Below, piece by piece: positions 6,127 through 49,708 of a DNA stretch of 63,969 nt (position 1 is its first letter; the number at the start of each line of letters is the position of its first letter). Source of the DNA: a virus. A model generated the notes under the pieces. The model was not told where the DNA came from, ran no database searches, and was given only the letters and a program-made list of their open reading frames with translations. The stretch is taken from positions 1 through 63,969 of the IMG/VR virus record IMGVR_UViG_3300034111_001063; one strand, written 5' to 3'. The translations under genes and the position numbers were made by a program.

Positions 6127-6147
6127 AGGGATGACGGGGTGCGTTGG

Positions 6148-6801
6148 TTAATGCTCCAGCTTGATAAGCTTATCTAGCAACCCGCAAGGGTTGAATGTGG
6201 TCCAAGCAGCATCAGCAGCAGCAGCACGAGCAGCAGCATCAGCAGCAGCAGCAGCAACATAAGCAGCAGCAGCATAAGCAGCAGCAGCATAAGCAGCATC
6301 AGCAGCATAAGCAGCAGCACGAGCAGCAGCACGAGCAGCACGAGCAGCAGCAGCAGCACGAGCAGCAGCATCAGCAGCAGCACGAGCAGCAGCAGCAGCA
6401 GTTCTTTGCCGCAGCATCTCCTTCCACTGCTCCCCATAGCCTCCTGAGTCGGCTGCTGGTTGAACAGTAGGTAGAACGGATTCCCATAGCCAATTCATGA
6501 TAATAGTTAGGCGTTCTTGCTCTCTCTCACGGCCAGTCCCGGCGGCTAACGGTAATAGGCGCTTCCACTCTGTGCTATTTCGCATTGTATCAGGCATGGC
6601 ATCCTGCATTGGAATTATCCATTTTCCGATAACTTCTGACATGCACAGTGGAATTGTGTCAGATAATTCCCCAGAAAGGGTTAGATTGATTGCAGCGATG
6701 CTGCAGGCGTTGTGTTCATCGCCTAAGCCTGCAGGTAGGTGCATGGTAGCCAGCTTGAGAGCAATGGCTTGTTGTTGCTGCTCGGTAATGGTTGGTTGCA
6801 T
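6148..6801 (-). CDS. Alanine-repeat phage protein (antifreeze-like helix)
   Basis: 217 residues from ATG 6801, which avoids overlap with the upstream gene; two earlier in-frame ATGs exist. Residues 1-130 form a conserved-looking helical domain (NACSIAAINLTLSGELSDTI, WLWESVLPTVQP). Residues about 135-200 are almost only Ala with R, D or Y every 3-5 residues, predicted as one long helix. Ala-rich tails of this kind follow this domain in other phages as far as I recall. The tail is encoded by an interrupted GCA microsatellite, so its length should vary. Confidence 0.65.
   Translation of the reverse strand: MQPTITEQQQQAIALKLATMHLPAGLGDEHNACSIAAINLTLSGELSDTIPLCMSEVIGKWIIPMQDAMPDTMRNSTEWKRLLPLAAGTGREREQERLTIIMNWLWESVLPTVQPAADSGGYGEQWKEMLRQRTAAAAARAAADAAARAAAAARAARAAARAAAYAADAAYAAAAYAAAAYVAAAAADAAARAAAADAAWTTFNPCGLLDKLIKLEH
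6205..6402. repeat. Interrupted AGC/GCT trinucleotide microsatellite
   Basis: About 200 bp of AGC triplets on the plus strand, broken by CAT, CAC and TAA variants that become D, R/V and Y codons on the minus-strand gene. The interruptions keep only Ala, Asp, Arg, Tyr and one Val, and no stop, which implies selection on the minus-strand reading frame. Confidence 0.85.
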
Positions 6802-6815
6802 TGGATCAGCCGGTG

Positions 6816-7205
6816 TTAGCCGGGGAGGGGTGAACGGGTGTCGGTCATAGTCCATAGGAAGCCGTCCCAGTAATGCCAAGTGATTAGCTCAGCATTTCTG
6901 AGGAAGGATTTGACTTGGCCGAATGTTTTGAAGTGTAGACACATCTCACTACGATGGTAGTGGTAAGATGGCCCTTCGGTAGAGGATTCTATATCCTCTC
7001 CCTTACTGTTATATCGACCTGTTAGTCTTTTGATTTTGTCGTTGATACCTGTCATGCCTCCAGGCGATACCAACATAGCGGCCAAGGGGCCGCTGTTGTA
7101 GGATTCGACTAGGGTTTTTTGGAGAGATTCTCCGTAAGACCCGTGGCAGCGGGACACGAGGAATAGCTCGTCAGCTACTTTAGCGACGAGATAAGAGCGG
7201 TTCAT
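6816..7205 (-). CDS. Hypothetical 129-residue protein
   Basis: ATG 7205 is chosen because the longer ORF would run through the gene at 7228-7455. Mixed alpha/beta: MNRSYLVAKVADELFLVSRC at the start, HYHRSEMCLHFK and a Trp-rich C-terminus (ITWHYWDGFLW). No family recognised. Confidence 0.5.
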   Translation of the reverse strand: MNRSYLVAKVADELFLVSRCHGSYGESLQKTLVESYNSGPLAAMLVSPGGMTGINDKIKRLTGRYNSKGEDIESSTEGPSYHYHRSEMCLHFKTFGQVKSFLRNAELITWHYWDGFLWTMTDTRSPLPG

Positions 7206-7455: not shown

Positions 7456-7609
7456 GAGACTTTGACCTCCCGTCGCGTAGCTCTAGCTGACAAGTAGCGT
7501 GCATAGTGAACAATCTGGTGTAATCAGATGGCTTACCTCCGTACTTACTAGCTCTTTCGGCTGCAGAAGGTACGAGGATAATCGGCTTGCCACAATGAGT
7601 ACAATTCAT
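7448..7609 (-). CDS. Small zinc-ribbon-like protein
   Basis: 53 residues from ATG 7609, ATGA-coupled to the upstream gene. It begins MNCTHCGKPIILVP and has HATC near residue 37-40, giving a CxxC...HxxC set that could bind zinc. Small zinc-ribbon proteins in phages often bind RNA polymerase or nucleic acid; none is identified here. Confidence 0.55.
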   Translation of the reverse strand: MNCTHCGKPIILVPSAAERASKYGGKPSDYTRLFTMHATCQLELRDGRSKSHA

Positions 7610-7899
7610 GGGGAATTAAAGGCCACGGAATAAGTGGTATTATCAATATGATGGACTGATGCTACAGCCCAATGAGGGCTGCCAGACTTGGCCGCTACTG
7701 CTAGAGCAGCAACTAAAGGCCCGTCGCTGAAAGGTACAGCGAGGCGAACTACAAGCCCCTCACCACGGGTAAGCGTTGCTATCCATTTTGGTGGACGGCG
7801 ACTTGTGGGTCCATGGTATTTGACTATGGCGGCAGGAAGGGCCCCGCGTATATACTCCCCGGTCCATACCGGGGTTTGGTCGGTTTTGGATTTAGACAT
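7606..7899 (-). CDS. Hypothetical 97-residue protein
   Basis: Basic, beta-rich (PPKWIATLTRGEGLVVRLAVPF), then an Ala-rich helix. ATGA-coupled to the zinc-ribbon gene. No family recognised. Confidence 0.5.
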   Translation of the reverse strand: MSKSKTDQTPVWTGEYIRGALPAAIVKYHGPTSRRPPKWIATLTRGEGLVVRLAVPFSDGPLVAALAVAAKSGSPHWAVASVHHIDNTTYSVAFNSP

Positions 7900-9185: not shown

Positions 9186-9493
9186 GGTAGCCTCTCAAAG
9201 ACAATGACACCACGGCCATCAGTAATGCGGATGTCTGCCAACTTGTGCATAAATATAGAGGAGTATTCTGCTAGGGCTTCTAATGCCACTGCCACATGGT
9301 TTTCACATTCAGTAAGGGTGTAGTCTCGCTGGTGTCGATAAACAGCAATCCCGGTACTGGCTGTGAAAACAGTATTACCGTTAGTGTCCCGGCGTCGTTC
9401 GGTTAGAACAACATCAAGAACAGGGCGTGGCGTAGTTGTACGCCAAAGATCCATCGCGGCCTTAGCCGGATGGATAGAGGTTGTGGCTGACAT
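9182..9493 (-). CDS. Hypothetical 103-residue protein
   Basis: First gene of the ATGA-linked run. Beta-rich centre (NTVFTASTGIAVYRHQRD) then an Ala-rich helix and a last strand (DGRGVIVFERLP). No family recognised. Tandem hairpins upstream (9530-9631) separate it from the previous gene. Confidence 0.5.
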   Translation of the reverse strand: MSATTSIHPAKAAMDLWRTTTPRPVLDVVLTERRRDTNGNTVFTASTGIAVYRHQRDYTLTECENHVAVALEALAEYSSIFMHKLADIRITDGRGVIVFERLP

Positions 9494-9529
9494 AGGAAGT
9501 CAGACGGCTAGAAAGCCGGGGTAAGAGGA

Positions 9530-10188: not shown

Positions 10189-10331
10189 TTTTCAATACGG
10201 ACGAAAGTGCCCGCAGCTTTTAGCTTACGCTGCTGTTTAGCAGCTAATTTAGCCGCACGGCGGCCAGGCGCAGTGGTAGCGTCTGGAAGAGGGAAAACGA
10301 GGATCTTTGGTGCTGGACGAAAGAACAACAT
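10185..10331 (-). CDS. Small basic protein
   Basis: 48 residues from ATG 10331, with AGGA about 6 nt upstream. Hydrophobic start (MLFFRPAPKILVFPLP), then a Lys/Arg/Ala helix (RRAAKLAAKQQRKLKAAG). Likely nucleic-acid-binding. It is the first protein gene after the RNA locus, so it may be translated from read-through of that transcript. Confidence 0.5.
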   Translation of the reverse strand: MLFFRPAPKILVFPLPDATTAPGRRAAKLAAKQQRKLKAAGTFVRIEK

Positions 10332-10347
10332 GGCATCCTAAGATGGT

Positions 10348-10361
10348 GCTCCCGTAGGAGC
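10348..10361 (-). terminator. UACG-tetraloop hairpin after the tRNA-like element
   Basis: Minus strand GCTCC-TACG-GGAGC: a 5-bp stem closed by a C(UACG)G tetraloop, a very stable loop class. It sits 4 nt past the acceptor end of the tRNA-like structure and before the gene at 10331. No U-run; it may protect the RNA 3' end. Confidence 0.45.
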
Positions 10362-10364
10362 GAT

Positions 10365-10460
10365 ACAACATAGGGGGATTTGAACCCCCATACGAAAGGC
10401 CCATCCTGTAAAAACAGGATGGGCGAATCGCGCCTTGCCTAGCTTGCGCTAGGTATGTTG
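10365..10460 (-). ncRNA. tRNA-like structure with non-canonical body
   Basis: The minus strand has a perfect 7-bp acceptor stem (CAACATA at 10460-10454 with TATGTTG at 10372-10366) and a canonical T-arm, GGGGG-TTCAAAT-CCCCC (10389-10373). CCA is not encoded. The body is not a normal cloverleaf: where the D-arm belongs there is a 6-bp hairpin with a 4-nt GCAA loop, then a GCG-ATT-CGC hairpin, then a 10-bp hairpin (10400-10423) with loop TTTT, and no 7-nt anticodon loop with U33. A diverged tRNA, a tRNA mimic, or the 3' domain of the larger RNA upstream are all possible. Confidence 0.6.
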
Positions 10461-11100
10461 TAGTAGAGAAAAATCTTTTGCTGCAGCCATGCTAGCCCTG
10501 CAGCGGGCGTGGACCGGGTCGCATTATTAGTGCGGTGCTCCGGGCTTATTTCCATACGAGACAGATCGTTAATGCGTCCCAGTTCGCCAGGGTTGCATTA
10601 TCGAGACTCCACTTCACCGCACTCAGCTAGCTTGATGCTTAGGTCCAAGGACCGCACAGACAATCAAGCCCCAGATGGCTCCGGGTAGCCTACTTGCGTC
10701 AGGTGGCTGTTCGTATTTCCCCATGCTCCCAGGTCGGTCAGGGTTCAACTTGACGGATCCCTCCGCGTCCGGTCTCCCGGCATGCAGCAGCGCTGCATGA
10801 GAACTTGTCCCTCTGGTGTGGCGAGCGTTAGGCCCCTTCCCGTACACGAACCCCTCACGCAGCGAAGCTGCCCCTGGGATACGCCCGTGCCCTCGGTACT
10901 TGTGTGATAGAAACACACGTTCTCTAGACATCATTGTCCGGTCATTCCGCAGGCAATCACCGCCGTTGGAAATCTGACTTACCGCCCTGCTGTGGTACGT
11001 CTGGTTATGCCAGACAACCCCGCACGGTTGAGTAGTAGGTGTAGCCGCGCTATACTGGCTGCGCTTTGGAAGGGGGATTACATAGGGTCGTCTGCGGTTG
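10461..11100 (-). ncRNA. Candidate large structured non-coding RNA (GOLLD/ROOL-like setting)
   Basis: About 640 nt dense in paired elements. There is a 9-bp helix 10529-10537/10615-10623 enclosing 10570-10575/10595-10600; a 7-bp helix 10630-10636/10663-10669 enclosing 10642-10646/10649-10653; and hairpins at 10781-10799 (8 bp), 10859-10871, 10902-10918 and 10999-11015. A sigma70-type promoter points into it (-10 at 11113-11108) and a tRNA-like element lies at its 3' end. One long ORF crosses it but its peptide has no protein character. Size, ornate folding, phage origin and tRNA adjacency recall GOLLD and ROOL RNAs; I cannot match their consensus by eye. Confidence 0.55.
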
Positions 11101-11107
11101 TGCAATT

Positions 11108-11136
11108 AACTTAGTCGGTTTTGGGCTGTTTGTCAA
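11108..11136 (-). promoter_or_regulatory. Sigma70-type promoter P1 of the RNA locus
   Basis: Minus strand TTGACA (11136-11131), 17-nt spacer, TAAGTT (11113-11108). Predicted start near 11100, at the edge of the structured region. Confidence 0.6.
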
Positions 11137-11166
11137 CCCTTGGCGCAATCCCCAAAGGGATCACTA

Positions 11167-11212
11167 GCAAGAAAGAAAGAACGAACCACGACGGGTGCCG
11201 GTTCTTTCTTGC
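11167..11212 (-). terminator. Long hairpin between tandem promoters
   Basis: GCAAGAAAG on one side pairs with CTTTCTTGC on the other, extended inwards to a stem of about 13 bp with one bulge, T/A-rich at its base. It could end a short leader RNA started from the upstream promoters. Confidence 0.4.
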
Positions 11213-11221
11213 TTGGATCCA

Positions 11222-11250
11222 ACATAAGCCCTACGTCGGCAGGTTGTCAA
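11222..11250 (-). promoter_or_regulatory. Promoter-like element P2
   Basis: Minus strand TTGACA (11250-11245), 17-nt spacer, TTATGT (11227-11222). The -35 is perfect, the -10 weak. It points toward the structured RNA. Confidence 0.4.
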
Positions 11251-11321
11251 GCGGTCCCGCCTAAGGTTCCACAACATCGGCGCAGTAAGATGAAACGCGC
11301 GCGTGCGCGGGAACCATCGTC

Positions 11322-11350
11322 AGTCTAGCACCAATCGGCCCCAGTGTCAA
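11322..11350 (-). promoter_or_regulatory. Strong sigma70-type promoter P3
   Basis: Minus strand TTGACA (11350-11345), 17-nt spacer, TAGACT (11327-11322). The word ATTGGTGCTAGA just before and in the -10 is repeated at the plus-strand promoter at 22043-22072, so this looks like a shared phage promoter class. Confidence 0.65.
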
Positions 11351-11387
11351 CCCCTTGGAGTCTCGCTGAGTCTCAGAGTGAGATTGA

Positions 11388-11450: not shown

Positions 11451-12347
11451 TTACTCTCTCTCCGATAGTTCATTCATTTTGACGAGCAGTTTGGACTTCC
11501 CGGACTTAAGCAACTGTGAGATTCTAGACTTACTTAAATATATATCATCTGCAACTTCCTGCAAAGACTTACCATGGATCACCACCTGTTCTACCACATA
11601 GTGTTCTCTGGAAGGTAAGCTTCGCAGCGCGGCCATGACCTGGCGATGCTCGCTGGAGGGGAGGGCTAGCTGGGGGAAAAGGGAGGGAGAGGGGTCGTCC
11701 TCGGGGGGAGTGTCCGCCACCAGTAACTCGATGAGTTCGCTGCCACCTTCTACTGCTGGGCAAGAGAGGCTTCTGACTGTGGTGGTTGAGTAATCCTCCA
11801 TGATTAGTTTAAGTCTCTCTACTGTCACCTTTGCGAACAGTGCTAAGTATTCAATAGAAGGTTTTACTCCAGTAGTTGCTTCTACTCGCATGCTTTCGCG
11901 CTGCACTTTACACAGTATTTCGTGGTAGTTTAGCGGTACGCGCACGGCACGTCCTTGATTGTGGAGTGCTCGCGTGATAGATTGTCTAATCCAGTTATAG
12001 CAGTAAGTCGATAGTCTGTAACCTCTAGATGGGTCGTATTTTTCTAACCCTCTTATTAAGCCCATGTTACCTTCTTGTATAAGATCTGGAAATTCCAATC
12101 CTCGGCCCCGATATATTTTTGCAATGGTGATCACCATGCGCAAGTTCGATTCGACCATTATCTTCATAGAATGCTGCCCGCGCCGCTTTATTTTTGATAT
12201 ATATGATTCTGGTAAATCACTGTTATCGGCTTTAGTCGCCTGCCATAGTGCGATATTACGGCAATGGCGTATTTGAGCTTCTTCACTTAAGACTATGTGT
12301 CTACCCACATCTTGCATATAGCCTTGAAGTTCAGAGTTACTAGCCAT
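11451..12347 (-). CDS. Sigma-70 family RNA polymerase sigma factor
   Basis: 298 residues with regions 1.2 to 4. Region 2 includes LRMVITIAKIYRGRGLEFPDLIQEG, and region 2.4 reads YDPSRGYRLSTYCYNWIRQS, close to group 1/2 cyanobacterial sigmas. Region 3 follows (VRVPLNYHEI), and region 4 ends in a HTH (LQEVADDIYLSKSRISQLL). It should redirect host RNA polymerase, probably to middle or late promoters. Region 2.4 keeps a housekeeping-like sequence, so recognised -10 sites may be near-consensus. Stop and start overlap the upstream gene (TAATG at 12347). A sigma of this size is unusual for a siphovirus. Confidence 0.9.
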   Translation of the reverse strand: MASNSELQGYMQDVGRHIVLSEEAQIRHCRNIALWQATKADNSDLPESYISKIKRRGQHSMKIMVESNLRMVITIAKIYRGRGLEFPDLIQEGNMGLIRGLEKYDPSRGYRLSTYCYNWIRQSITRALHNQGRAVRVPLNYHEILCKVQRESMRVEATTGVKPSIEYLALFAKVTVERLKLIMEDYSTTTVRSLSCPAVEGGSELIELLVADTPPEDDPSPSLFPQLALPSSEHRQVMAALRSLPSREHYVVEQVVIHGKSLQEVADDIYLSKSRISQLLKSGKSKLLVKMNELSERE

Positions 12348-41349: not shown

Positions 41350-41744
41350 TATCCACCTCCGGTTACTCTGAATATGCCAGATATGGGCTGCTTAAGATAG
41401 GGGAATGAAGCTGCAGGCATGCTAAGATCAATAACGAGTTCAAAACGACCTTTTACCCCGTTGTGGGTAGCTAATGCTTGTGATCCATTTACAATACGGG
41501 GATCTAGCGTGCTCGGGGAGAGCAGCCGCCCAGATACGTTGTAAGTGGTTTGATCCGTACCTGAAGATGTCTTCCAATTAGGCTGTTGAATTTTAAGATA
41601 AGCTAGATATTCTATTGTAATTTCGCCGTAGGTATAGTTACCTGTGGCCTGGTCTATGTTAAGTGTAGTGTTTGGGACTTTGAATATAAGTTCAGTATTG
41701 CCCCATGGAGCGAAAGCTGATATTAGCGCGGGAGCTATACTCAT
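41349..41744 (-). CDS. Putative head-closure protein
   Basis: 131 residues, beta-barrel-like (GNTELIFKVPNTTLNIDQAT, GEITIEYLAYLKIQ). The place between the decoration gene and gp10-like gene suits a head-closure (gp16/FII-like) protein. No diagnostic motif. Confidence 0.45.
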   Translation of the reverse strand: MSIAPALISAFAPWGNTELIFKVPNTTLNIDQATGNYTYGEITIEYLAYLKIQQPNWKTSSGTDQTTYNVSGRLLSPSTLDPRIVNGSQALATHNGVKGRFELVIDLSMPAASFPYLKQPISGIFRVTGGG

Positions 41745-41748
41745 TACT

Positions 41749-44304
41749 TTACTGTTTAAGGGCGTTTGCTAATGCGGCTGCGGTTGTGTCCATAGTGCTA
41801 CAATTGCGTAAGCGCTCTAGTTCTGGATTGAGTTCTGCCCGTACTGCTGCAGCAACTTCCCCAGCCGCTATAGTAGTTTGTGAAGCGTTGTCAATAGTAC
41901 CACCAGTGATAGTACGACTGGTGTGGGTCCATACTTGGGCCGCTGTGAGTGTCGAACGCCCTGATAGCATACCTCCCGCACGTTCCATATCTGCACGGAT
42001 AGCTGCTACTAGAGCGACTTGATCGACACTGCTATTACCTATAGCTCCGACGATTGCGTTCAATATAGCTTGTCCATCACTCTCGTTTAGGATGCTTTGT
42101 TCCACTGCCGTAGCTATAGCTTGACGCTCAGCAGAGGTTAAGGAGTATCCGGTTTTATCTACACTACCTCCAGTTATAGTGCGGCTAGGGGTGTTCCACA
42201 CTGCGGAGGCTATTTCTGAAGTAGCAGGGAATGAAGGTTGGCTTGTAAGCGTTGTAGTGGTGTCCGTCAGGGTAACGCGAGCCAGGGTGCCCGAAGGGGC
42301 CAGTCTGGACGATACGGGAGTGTCGAGCCGTGCCAGTTCGACACTCAGCTCAGTGCGAATTGCAGCGGTTGTTGGTGCCGCTGAGTAGCTGACAGAGGCC
42401 AGCCGGGTGGAAGTAGCAACATCAAGCCTGCTCAGCTCCGTTGTTAGCTCCGTTCGCACCTGGGATGCAATCGTGGCAGCGCTGGGAACATTAGGAGCGT
42501 TGGTCAAGGTTGTTACCGTGGACAACGTGCCAGTAGGAGCTAGGCGGGAGGACACGGCCACATCAAGCCGCGCTAATTCAGTGCTCAGCTCCGCACGCAC
42601 ACCTCCAGCAGTGAGTGTGGATCTACCAGCTAACATTCCGCCATTTCGCTCTAGGTCAGCACGGATCGCGGCGATCAACGCTACTTGATCAATATTTGTG
42701 TTACCTATTGCACCTACTATAGCGTTTAAGATGGCTTGTCCATCATTTTCGTTGAGGATACTTTGCTCTACTGCAGTAGCGATGGCTAGGCGTTCTGAAG
42801 AAGTTAGTGAGTACCCCACTTTGTCTAGTATGGTGTTTACTGTACCCCCTGTGATGGTGCGAGCGGTGTTAGCCCACACAGCGGTGGCTACATCAGTAGC
42901 TGTAGGGGCGCTACTACTTGTAAGAGTTCTTGTTACTGCACCCCACACAGCTCCAGCTATGTCTATAGCAGAGGGGATAGTGGTAGTGATGGTTCTAGTT
43001 GCTGCATTCCAGACAGCGGTAGCGATGTCAGTAGCAGTGGGAATTGAGGGGAACGCGGTAGTTAGGGTGCGCGTGGCAGTAGACCAAACTTCGGCAGCTA
43101 TTTCAGTGGCTGTTGGGGAGCTACCGCCACCACCACCGCCGCCACTGGTTAGAGTTCTAGTGCTATTGCTCCAGACTTGCGCAGGAATTTGTGAAAATTT
43201 TGTGTCCATGTTGCCGGTGACCATACCAAGCGCTGACAGCACGTTGGCTCCGGTCAAAATGGCTGTACCGACTGTATTCCCAACTGGCACGCCTTGCGCT
43301 ACAGATGAGGGTGATGGGCTAATGTGGGTTCCTGTAAGTTCGTTATTGGGTCCGTACACAGTAGGGGCCACTACATTACTAGCGACGGGCCAGTTGCCAG
43401 TTGGTATGTTGTCGGCAGAGTATAAATCTCGCCTGGTGCTGCCATCGCTTCTAACAGCTTGCTCGTAAGTCGGGATGAGCGTTGTGGCCCACGTATATCT
43501 TTGACATTGCTTGGGATTGATGTTGCCACTCGAACCCAACTCAAGGGGGCCCGATATTCTTGTGTTTTGGCCAACGCCACCCCGCCCAATCGCTGGCGCC
43601 CCAGTTCCAGACCTGCCCACGCCAATAGCATTAAAGAATCCAGTTGAACTATTTTCTATGCCTGCACCATTAGATCCACCCGTATAGTTGCCAGTTAGAT
43701 TATACGTTCCACTGACAGAAGTGTTAACTGCTCCTACCGCAGCACTATTAGAAGAACCGAAAACATTTCCAGTGTGGTTTATCGTCCCACTGCCGCTTAG
43801 CCTGACGCCAGGCGCGACGCTGCCGCCACTTCCACCGACAGCCGTTACGCTGCCCGTAATGTTTAGTGTTCCTGTTGAAGCATTGTCAATTGTAGCACTT
43901 CCTTGATTGACCCCCAAGTAGGTGCCGTTTAGGTTAAATGTCCCACTCGTACCATGAGTTACCAACACACCGCTTCCACCTACGGACGCACTGGTGGTAG
44001 TCCCAGCACTAAGGCGGGCCGAGTGTCCAACGGACAGGTTTGTCGAGATGAGGCTGCTTCCATATAACAAGCTATTTGCGTTGGTAGCGGTTAAGTCGCC
44101 GCCATCTCGGAAAACAAAACCTCCGCCGGCAACAATACCTGTTCCGACCAAATTAGACAATGCCTGAACAGTGCGAGCATCGCTAATTAGTACAGTATTC
44201 CCATTAGTAAATGCTACATCACCGGGGCCTGGCACAACGCCTCCAAACCATGTTGCCGGCAAAGAGAAATCATTGTTGGTTAGTATGGCGGGAATGTTAG
44301 CCAT
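41749..44304 (-). CDS. Large repeat-rich virion protein (head or neck fibre)
   Basis: 851 residues. Residues 1-270 are a Gly/Ser/Thr beta-helix-like region after a G8-like start (PATWFGGVVPGPGDVAFTNG). Residues about 370-470 hold tandem units of the form EIAxAVWxxxTRTLT. A block of about 70 residues (GYSLTSSERLAIATAVEQS and on) is duplicated near 480-550 and 720-790. Between them are ELARLDxxVSSRLAP units. Such proteins are whiskers or fibres; it lies among head-tail connector genes rather than by the tail tip. Confidence 0.65.
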   Translation of the reverse strand: MANIPAILTNNDFSLPATWFGGVVPGPGDVAFTNGNTVLISDARTVQALSNLVGTGIVAGGGFVFRDGGDLTATNANSLLYGSSLISTNLSVGHSARLSAGTTTSASVGGSGVLVTHGTSGTFNLNGTYLGVNQGSATIDNASTGTLNITGSVTAVGGSGGSVAPGVRLSGSGTINHTGNVFGSSNSAAVGAVNTSVSGTYNLTGNYTGGSNGAGIENSSTGFFNAIGVGRSGTGAPAIGRGGVGQNTRISGPLELGSSGNINPKQCQRYTWATTLIPTYEQAVRSDGSTRRDLYSADNIPTGNWPVASNVVAPTVYGPNNELTGTHISPSPSSVAQGVPVGNTVGTAILTGANVLSALGMVTGNMDTKFSQIPAQVWSNSTRTLTSGGGGGGGSSPTATEIAAEVWSTATRTLTTAFPSIPTATDIATAVWNAATRTITTTIPSAIDIAGAVWGAVTRTLTSSSAPTATDVATAVWANTARTITGGTVNTILDKVGYSLTSSERLAIATAVEQSILNENDGQAILNAIVGAIGNTNIDQVALIAAIRADLERNGGMLAGRSTLTAGGVRAELSTELARLDVAVSSRLAPTGTLSTVTTLTNAPNVPSAATIASQVRTELTTELSRLDVATSTRLASVSYSAAPTTAAIRTELSVELARLDTPVSSRLAPSGTLARVTLTDTTTTLTSQPSFPATSEIASAVWNTPSRTITGGSVDKTGYSLTSAERQAIATAVEQSILNESDGQAILNAIVGAIGNSSVDQVALVAAIRADMERAGGMLSGRSTLTAAQVWTHTSRTITGGTIDNASQTTIAAGEVAAAVRAELNPELERLRNCSTMDTTAAALANALKQ

Positions 44305-44306
44305 TC

Positions 44307-44612
44307 TTACACGTTTGCGTTGATGAATGCTTGAGCCGCGGCTTCCTGTGCTGCCAGGAACCGGGCCAGGCTTAGATTACCTTTTTGAGCCATTTTCCCA
44401 GCAAGGGTTACTGCGTCAGCAAAAACCATGCTTGTTCGGCCTTCCTGCAATATCTCTGGCCCGTTTGGTCCGTCTCGATACGGGAAAAAAGTGACCGATA
44501 TATCTAAGACCATTTCCCCATTCTTTGGGTTTGTTGACTGGGCAATAGATACGCCTAGTTTGTCGTAGACAAGTCCGTCAATTACGGGCGGCTGTGGGTT
44601 GATGATTGCCAT
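44307..44612 (-). CDS. Hypothetical structural protein
   Basis: 101 residues: PPVIDGLVYDKLGVSIAQS, beta strands (GEMVLDISVTFFPYRDG), then an Ala-rich helix. It abuts the connector gene. Function unknown. Confidence 0.5.
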   Translation of the reverse strand: MAIINPQPPVIDGLVYDKLGVSIAQSTNPKNGEMVLDISVTFFPYRDGPNGPEILQEGRTSMVFADAVTLAGKMAQKGNLSLARFLAAQEAAAQAFINANV

Positions 44613-45172
44613 CAGAGATAGATAAGGGAGGAGTAGTTAACCCAAGCCCCAGATGCAGTAGCCCGAGTTTGTAGCACGCCCGCACTATTGAAAACATAAC
44701 GGACAATTGTCCAACCTAAGGAGGACTCATCAGTGCCGCCTGGAGCTGTACCAAAATAACTAGTTGTCGCTGTGTTAGCCGTGCGCGACTCGTTAGGTAA
44801 TAAACTAGGAGGGGGTGGTAGAGTCGGTTCATAGTCCACGACCTCACTGATAGAGTCAAAACTAGCAAAACCTATTACCGCTATCGAGTCTCTAAGTCTT
44901 TTGTACTCTTGTCCGTAATGAGTGGAGTCTAGACCTACAGCAAGAGCGGCCCCCGAGGGCGCTCCTATTTGAGATCCTATTTGAATAATGCGGGTTGCGA
45001 GTAAATGCGCTGATAAATAGGCAATGCCATCTACGCGGAACCCACTGTTACCCCATACAGAAGCTGGAGTTTGACGTTCGGCTTGTAAAATGATTGGATT
45101 TATTACTGCAGACTGTTGTTCAGCGAACTCGGGGAACCTCTGCTGAAGCTCCGCTGCAGTAATCACAGCCAT
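44612..45172 (-). CDS. Head-tail adaptor, DUF4054-like
   Basis: 186 residues. VITAAELQQRFPEFAEQQSA and IILQAERQTP with YLSAHLLATRI follow the DUF4054 helical adaptor family. Residues 125-186 form a beta-rich C-terminal add-on. It would bind the portal. Confidence 0.7.
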   Translation of the reverse strand: MAVITAAELQQRFPEFAEQQSAVINPIILQAERQTPASVWGNSGFRVDGIAYLSAHLLATRIIQIGSQIGAPSGAALAVGLDSTHYGQEYKRLRDSIAVIGFASFDSISEVVDYEPTLPPPPSLLPNESRTANTATTSYFGTAPGGTDESSLGWTIVRYVFNSAGVLQTRATASGAWVNYSSLIYL

Positions 45173-48658: not shown

Positions 48659-49708
48659 CTAGTAGCTTTTTAATAAAGCGGTCTCTAAACTTCTGTAATA
48701 ACCTCTTACAACTTTGTCTACGTGGTCGGTCTCATAAGTGCGTAAAGCGTTTTCTAGAGGATCCCACTGAGGAGCCCACCGGCTTTCAAATGTCTCTATT
48801 GCGTATTCTGATAAACCTACGCGGCGTGGTACTTGAGTAAGCTCGTTGATGAAATCGCGGGCGCTAGTTCGATTTTCTGTAGCGAACTCAGCTAGGCCGA
48901 AGTCGATGAATTTAAGGCTTCTGGTTTTTGGGTTAAACATTATGTTTTTTAAGTGCCCATCGTTGTGTACGAGACCACTCATGTGTAAAGAGCGATAGAG
49001 GTCTAACATTTGGCGTTTTAACTGTAGTGGTGCGGTGTATTTAAGCGAGAAAATACTAGAACTTACCCCATGCGTAGATAAAGGGGAATAATTGTTCAAG
49101 TGCTCCATGACCAATACCCGGTCAGTAGCTTTGTATAGCTGAGGGGATGGCACATTATTGATGTTAGCGTGCCTTAGTATCTCACCTTCAGGGAGTAAGC
49201 TTTCTGTGGGGCCGCTCAGGAATTTATTAGGCGTCCCCCCGAGGTCGTTGTTCTTTAAGTATTTTATACCGTATTTATTAGACGGGTGGACAACATAATT
49301 ACCGTAAGCACCTTGGCCCCCTAGACATCGTGGAGTCGGAACAAAGTCATCTTCCCTAATCCAGTGATCAATCTTGGATGCTGCACATGCAATTGCGTTG
49401 GCTTTCTTGTTATCTTCAAAGACATCCCACTGTTTGCCGCGCTTCCGCGCCTCAGCTTCGATCCGATCCCAGTCCTCACCAGGGGCGGTGAATCCCTTCC
49501 AATCGGGGTCGCGGCGAACGAAACGGCGGGCGGCGGAGATGCCTAGGACTGCGATCCCGGCCCCAAGGGCGACTTTGCCGATCAGGCTCGGGGTGATTGC
49601 TGGGTTAGAACTGGGTGCAGTGGTCTTTTTGGAGCATTTCTTGTTGTCTGGTATGCCTGACGCACCGCATTTCTTGTCGAATCTTAGTGAAGCGGTGGTT
49701 ATGGGCAT
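48659..49708 (-). CDS. Virion-region protein kinase with Cys-motif leader
   Basis: 349 residues. Residues 8-28 carry the shared leader LRFDKKCGASGI with the second Cys at 25, followed by a hydrophobic segment (41-62). A complete kinase-like core follows: GxGxxG loop GQGAYGNYV (about 131-140), Lys 149, Glu near 177, hinge RVLVMEHL, catalytic HNDGHLKN (248-255) and IDFG (268-271). All ATP and Mg ligands are present, so it is probably active. Placed between protease/scaffold and the moron. Packaging and injection are inferred, not shown. Confidence 0.75.
   Translation of the reverse strand: MPITTASLRFDKKCGASGIPDNKKCSKKTTAPSSNPAITPSLIGKVALGAGIAVLGISAARRFVRRDPDWKGFTAPGEDWDRIEAEARKRGKQWDVFEDNKKANAIACAASKIDHWIREDDFVPTPRCLGGQGAYGNYVVHPSNKYGIKYLKNNDLGGTPNKFLSGPTESLLPEGEILRHANINNVPSPQLYKATDRVLVMEHLNNYSPLSTHGVSSSIFSLKYTAPLQLKRQMLDLYRSLHMSGLVHNDGHLKNIMFNPKTRSLKFIDFGLAEFATENRTSARDFINELTQVPRRVGLSEYAIETFESRWAPQWDPLENALRTYETDHVDKVVRGYYRSLETALLKSY

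Follow-up and report, generated by a model that had tools for sequence, protein, structure and literature searches.

A candidate modular non-coding RNA locus with an exchangeable body in a probable cyanophage

The IMG/VR virus record IMGVR_UViG_3300034111_001063, analyzed here over its full 63,969 bases (the window), probably belongs to a phage infecting a cyanobacterium. This host is suggested because the nearest relatives of the terminase are found in phages of Cylindrospermopsis and Nodularia, because the sole match of an 851-aa protein is in a Pseudanabaena phage, and because the better matches of the phage sigma factor include cyanophage S-CBS3 (42% over half its length). The gene of this sigma-70-type factor occupies positions 11451-12347 of the minus strand, and the locus described here lies 3' of it on the same strand, with the primase-helicase and polymerase genes within a few kb. 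Comparisons involved two near relatives, L006 and L009 (the latter from record G003), and two divergent phages, L007 and L021; the sigma factors of these last two share only 55-56% identity with that of the window.

Directly downstream of the sigma-factor gene stand three promoter patterns, all on the minus strand: P1 (11322-11350, TTGACA-17-TAGACT), P2 (11221-11250, TTGACA-18-TATGTT), and P3 (11108-11136, TTGACA-17-TAAGTT), the last with a predicted start near 11101. The preliminary description had reported three upstream TTGACA-N17 promoters, and they are indeed present, with spacers of 17, 18, and 17. Where 1.3 hits of the strict TTGACA pattern would be expected, the window has eight, three of which fall in this one 250-bp part of the locus. 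The three positions are kept in four phage lineages, including the divergent L007 and L021, which have equal spacings. The P1 equivalents read TTGACG-17-TAGACT in L007 and TTGACA-17-TAAACT in L021, those of P2 TTGACG-18-TAGGTT and TTGACG-18-TAGATT, and those of P3 TTGACG-17-CATACT and TTGACA-17-CATACT, respectively. Just upstream of P1 (about 11357-11376 in the window), a GAG.CTC...GACTCCA motif is conserved, also in L007 and L021, and is perhaps a regulator site.

Between P2 and P3 lies a leader hairpin, H2 (11158-11220, minus strand), absent from the preliminary description, with a 10-bp stem joining 11203-11212 to 11167-11176 and CGTCG in its loop. Eight of the ten stem pairs are altered on both sides between lineages while retaining complementarity, and 98% of cells are paired, versus 47-76% in slid controls. 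The covariation of H2 is the strongest at the locus. Downstream of P3, a constant 5' leader of the putative RNA (11043-11101) is common to the window, L006, and L009.

At the other end of the locus, a tRNA-like 3' domain covers positions 10364-10462 of the minus strand. A tRNA-like 3' element had been announced at the end of the span 10461-11350; it exists, but the domain begins where that span ends. Its acceptor pairs 10454-10460 with 10366-10372 and extends to 9 bp in the window (10454-10462 with 10364-10372). It is followed by a D-like arm of 6 bp capped by GCAA (10438-10453), a long hairpin whose loop has 4 nt (10399-10424) set on a stem formed by 10428-10431 and 10392-10395, and a T-arm with a UUCAAAU loop (10373-10389). 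After the tail comes a terminator-like UNCG hairpin, GCTCC-TACG-GGAGC (10348-10361), which in L007 reads GCCCC-TTCG-GGGGC and precedes ATTTTCT. All 38 pairs of the tail and UNCG hairpin (100%) form in the window, L009, L006, and L007, four of them with double compensation. As in tRNAs, a 7-bp acceptor is stacked on a 5-bp T-arm bearing a UUCRA T-loop, an arrangement of acceptor and T-arm that the window shows at a single place and that turned up in 1 of 100 shuffled windows. Run over the related records, a covariance model built on the tail reports matches confined to the lineages of the window, L009, L006, and L007; it finds none in the distant exonuclease relatives L022-L030, the domain was not found in L021, and a 20-mer of the tail has no match in bacterial genomes. 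Two peculiarities of the surroundings are worth recording. In L007 (7160-7312), a 23-nt insert within the T-stem is able to form two small hairpins. In the window, the 141 nt adjoining the tail (10189-10329) contain a possible 48-aa gene and have no match in G003, and L009 holds at this spot about 32 nt resembling window positions 9491-9522.

The stacking of the acceptor on a canonical T-arm recalls the tRNA-like domain of tmRNA and tRNA-Sec, in the latter of which the D-stem likewise has 6 bp and a loop of 4 nt (a weak 15-bit match). Unlike these molecules, the tail is devoid of a tag frame, an anticodon loop, a D-loop GG, and a CCA. Neither ARAGORN at normal settings nor Rfam calls a tRNA or tmRNA at the tail, and relaxed ARAGORN thresholds return only poor tRNA calls and implausible tmRNA calls. 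A decoding tRNA was rejected because the long hairpin closes with a 4-nt loop instead of a 7-nt anticodon loop, and a tmRNA because there is neither a tag reading frame nor such a call at normal settings.

The promoters, the hairpins, and the nearby replication genes could also be read at the DNA level, e.g. as a transcription-primed replication origin in which tandem promoters and inverted repeats accompany an R-loop-forming region. The primase-helicase and polymerase genes a few kb away and the palindromic nature of the hairpins would suit such an element. However, the arms of H2 and of the tail change by compensation and do not keep their sequence, the GC-skew minimum was not found at the locus, and the wholly unrelated cores described below would be unexpected for elements of similar role, which together make an origin improbable.

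The leader and the tail enclose an exchangeable core of 579 nt with sharp borders (type A; 10464-11042, minus strand). Many perfect and nested helices had been claimed for this region, but core A does no better than chance, either in folding energy (MFE z = -0.7 vs shuffled sequence) or in its number of perfect 6- to 9-bp stems (P = 0.09-0.31). A 771-nt span folds with z = -3.0, a value that seems due for the most part to the tRNA-like domain and to a helix between the leader and the end of the core. Of the ornate non-coding RNA driven by tandem promoters that had been proposed, the promoters, the non-coding nature, and the tRNA-like end agree with the evidence, and the word ornate is not supported for core A. 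No homologue of core A was found in the collections searched, including a blastn comparison of the locus with phages and a search of viral and genome contigs by means of its open frame. When further relatives were sought through primase and polymerase, the sole addition was a near-identical fragment, L042, and core A was not found in it. Covariation, which had been put forward as a check, is seen in H2 and the tail and is only suggestive in the type-B core of the relatives (see below), core A having no homologue with which to be compared. The case for core A as an RNA rests on its position, which is the site of a conserved non-coding RNA.

The open frame in question (10623-11105, minus strand; 483 nt, 160 aa) is moderately unlikely by chance at the given GC content, and its codon score of -0.21 is the highest among the six frames; this score is below that of nearly all phage genes, in a test that discriminates weakly. 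The frame begins, however, with a TTG located upstream of the predicted P3 start site, and this codon is TTC in L006 and L009, where the frame stops just past the junction. A conserved protein in this frame had been named as the observation that would speak against an RNA; it was looked for in viral and genome contigs, phages, PHROGs, and Pfam, and no relative was found. That the 160-aa frame encodes a protein is thus very improbable.

A further feature of the locus, absent from the preliminary description, is the replacement of the core in near-identical relatives. In L006 and L009, the flanks are 96-98% identical to the window, yet an unrelated core of ~480 nt (type B) stands between the same leader and tail. 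Over the whole comparison of the window with G003, mean identity is 96.5%, and the core is among nine unmatched stretches of at least 60 nt. The type-B core of L009 recurs in the distant phage L007, and in the comparison of G003 with G001 no HSP is better conserved than that of the type-B region (88.5% over 548 nt, vs a genome mean of ~70%). Inside the core, L009 and L007 are 92.3% identical over 418 nt, and their 32 differences exhibit no codon periodicity, with stops in every frame. The consensus fold of these two sequences beats simulated substitution (P = 0.015), and compensatory changes number three against 1.0 expected (P = 0.06), which is suggestive of a structured type-B core but is not proof. 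Beyond the known loci, a type-B 18-mer returned just chance hits in coding DNA among viral contigs (L010-L012), and part of the type-B locus, compared by blastn with phages and plasmids, had no match there. Phage L021 has the same promoters followed by a third unrelated core (type C, 12807-13300 of L021) and no tail. The fold of this core, with z about -4.6, is the most significant of the core types, and no Rfam match above threshold was obtained for it. Compared by sequence, cores A, B, and C display no similarity above shuffles. As a separate observation, the L021 core holds two similar stretches, CCTTGACAACTGAATAG and CCTTGACAATAGAATAG.

Type B is conserved far above any gene, and in the phage of the window type A stands in its stead. 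Core A might be filler without a working role as RNA, brought in by recombination in place of the type-B RNA; the promoters and tail would then be what is left of a lost RNA gene, or elements serving only downstream genes. Its folding at chance level and its want of a homologue fit such an event, as does the 141-nt piece adjoining the tail, which is likewise unmatched in G003. Against this stand the intact promoters, leader, and tail, 96-98% identical to those of relatives with the conserved core, and the size of the insert, which is near that of type B and fits exactly between leader and tail. We regard filler as rather unlikely, and type A as most likely an alternative large RNA body occupying the type-B slot.

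Large non-coding RNAs are known from phages, among them GOLLD and ROOL, whose shapes are known and whose roles are not; GOLLD forms a 14-mer RNA cage. The locus may belong to this general kind: its promoters, H2, its tail, and type-B conservation agree with it, and the type-B core structure is suggestive. An identity with GOLLD or ROOL, which had been suggested, is not borne out. At E up to 10, the GOLLD covariance model (RF02032, gathering score 150 bits) matches nothing in the records of the window, L009, L007, and L021. In these four phages and at this limit, the same holds for the HEARO model (RF02033) and for that of ROOL (RF03087); for ROOL, 14 control genomes were equally silent, a weak control. 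Scanned against all Rfam families at gathering and at permissive thresholds, the three cores returned nothing. In GOLLD, the 3' part is constant and the 5' part variable, and the RNA is located near tRNAs (PMC12286853), a likeness to the present locus as a large phage RNA beside a tRNA-like element; however, sequence and structure do not match, the constant 3' part is here a tRNA-like domain of ~100 nt, and close phages have bodies unrelated to one another. ROOL is similar in length (574 model positions), phage setting, and tRNA neighbourhood, and differs in that its model does not match the locus. Despite these resemblances, the empty model searches and permissive scans make a far-diverged GOLLD, ROOL, or HEARO RNA extremely unlikely. 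The locus possibly works, by analogy, like RNAs of the GOLLD/ROOL type, and we do not treat it as a member.

We favor, with a probability of about 0.6, the reading that this probable cyanophage has a non-coding RNA gene built of modules, in which constant promoters and a processing tail serve an exchangeable large RNA body. The body looks exchangeable because near-identical relatives share promoters and tail and differ wholly in what lies between. The three tandem sigma-70-type promoters, adjoining the phage sigma-factor gene, would drive transcription of the minus strand. H2 would be part of the transcripts that begin at P1 and P2, where it may shield the 5' end or undergo cutting by RNase III. 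The RNA would then consist of the constant leader, a body of ~480-580 nt, and the constant tRNA-like domain with its terminator hairpin. A 7+5-bp acceptor/T-arm stack with a T-loop is the minimal shape for RNase P recognition. Since the stack of the tail, with its UUCAAAU loop, fits this shape, the tRNA-like domain is most likely a 3' processing and stability signal, and it would be unable to decode for want of an anticodon loop. RNase P, and possibly RNase Z, may recognize the tail and fix the 3' end, a cut before the acceptor releasing the body with a defined 3' end. In eukaryotes, ends of the MALAT1 mascRNA type provide a precedent, as a tRNA-like fold terminates a long RNA and the cut by RNase P makes the 3' end; the cleavage proposed for the phage tail is an analogy with that system, which is eukaryotic and unrelated in sequence. 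The body would be the working part, acting as RNA. Several points temper this modular reading: the missing CCA and D-loop GG leave recognition of the tail by tRNA enzymes unproven, the tail is not needed in every lineage, as L021 has no tRNA-like domain, core A folds no better than shuffles, and the compensatory changes of core B are few.

More tentatively, the modular gene may be a cassette system, in which unrelated bodies are swapped behind the constant promoter array and ahead of the tRNA-like tail because they confer specificity in an RNA-based contest, whether with the host or with a rival phage, e.g. counter-defence or superinfection exclusion. Selection for a different body is suggested because the exchange occurs between near-identical phages. 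Whatever its role, a body that is the most conserved region in one pair of phages and is wholly replaced in another, ~96% identical pair points to selection on the RNA itself. The close relatives amount to a natural swap experiment, with equal promoters and tail and a different body, which gives a direct handle for testing the roles of large phage RNAs, and the tRNA-like tail suggests how the 3' end of a phage non-coding RNA may be made.

Elsewhere in the window, the largest stretch without a match in G003 (41692-44863) encodes the 851-aa protein, whose one weak match is that in the Pseudanabaena phage and which is possibly the product of a tail-fibre gene. Two stretches of the early region (6135-6826 and 7458-7820) are also unmatched in this near relative. 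Lastly, a predicted protein encoded amid phage structural genes (48659-49708) contains a protein-kinase-like domain.
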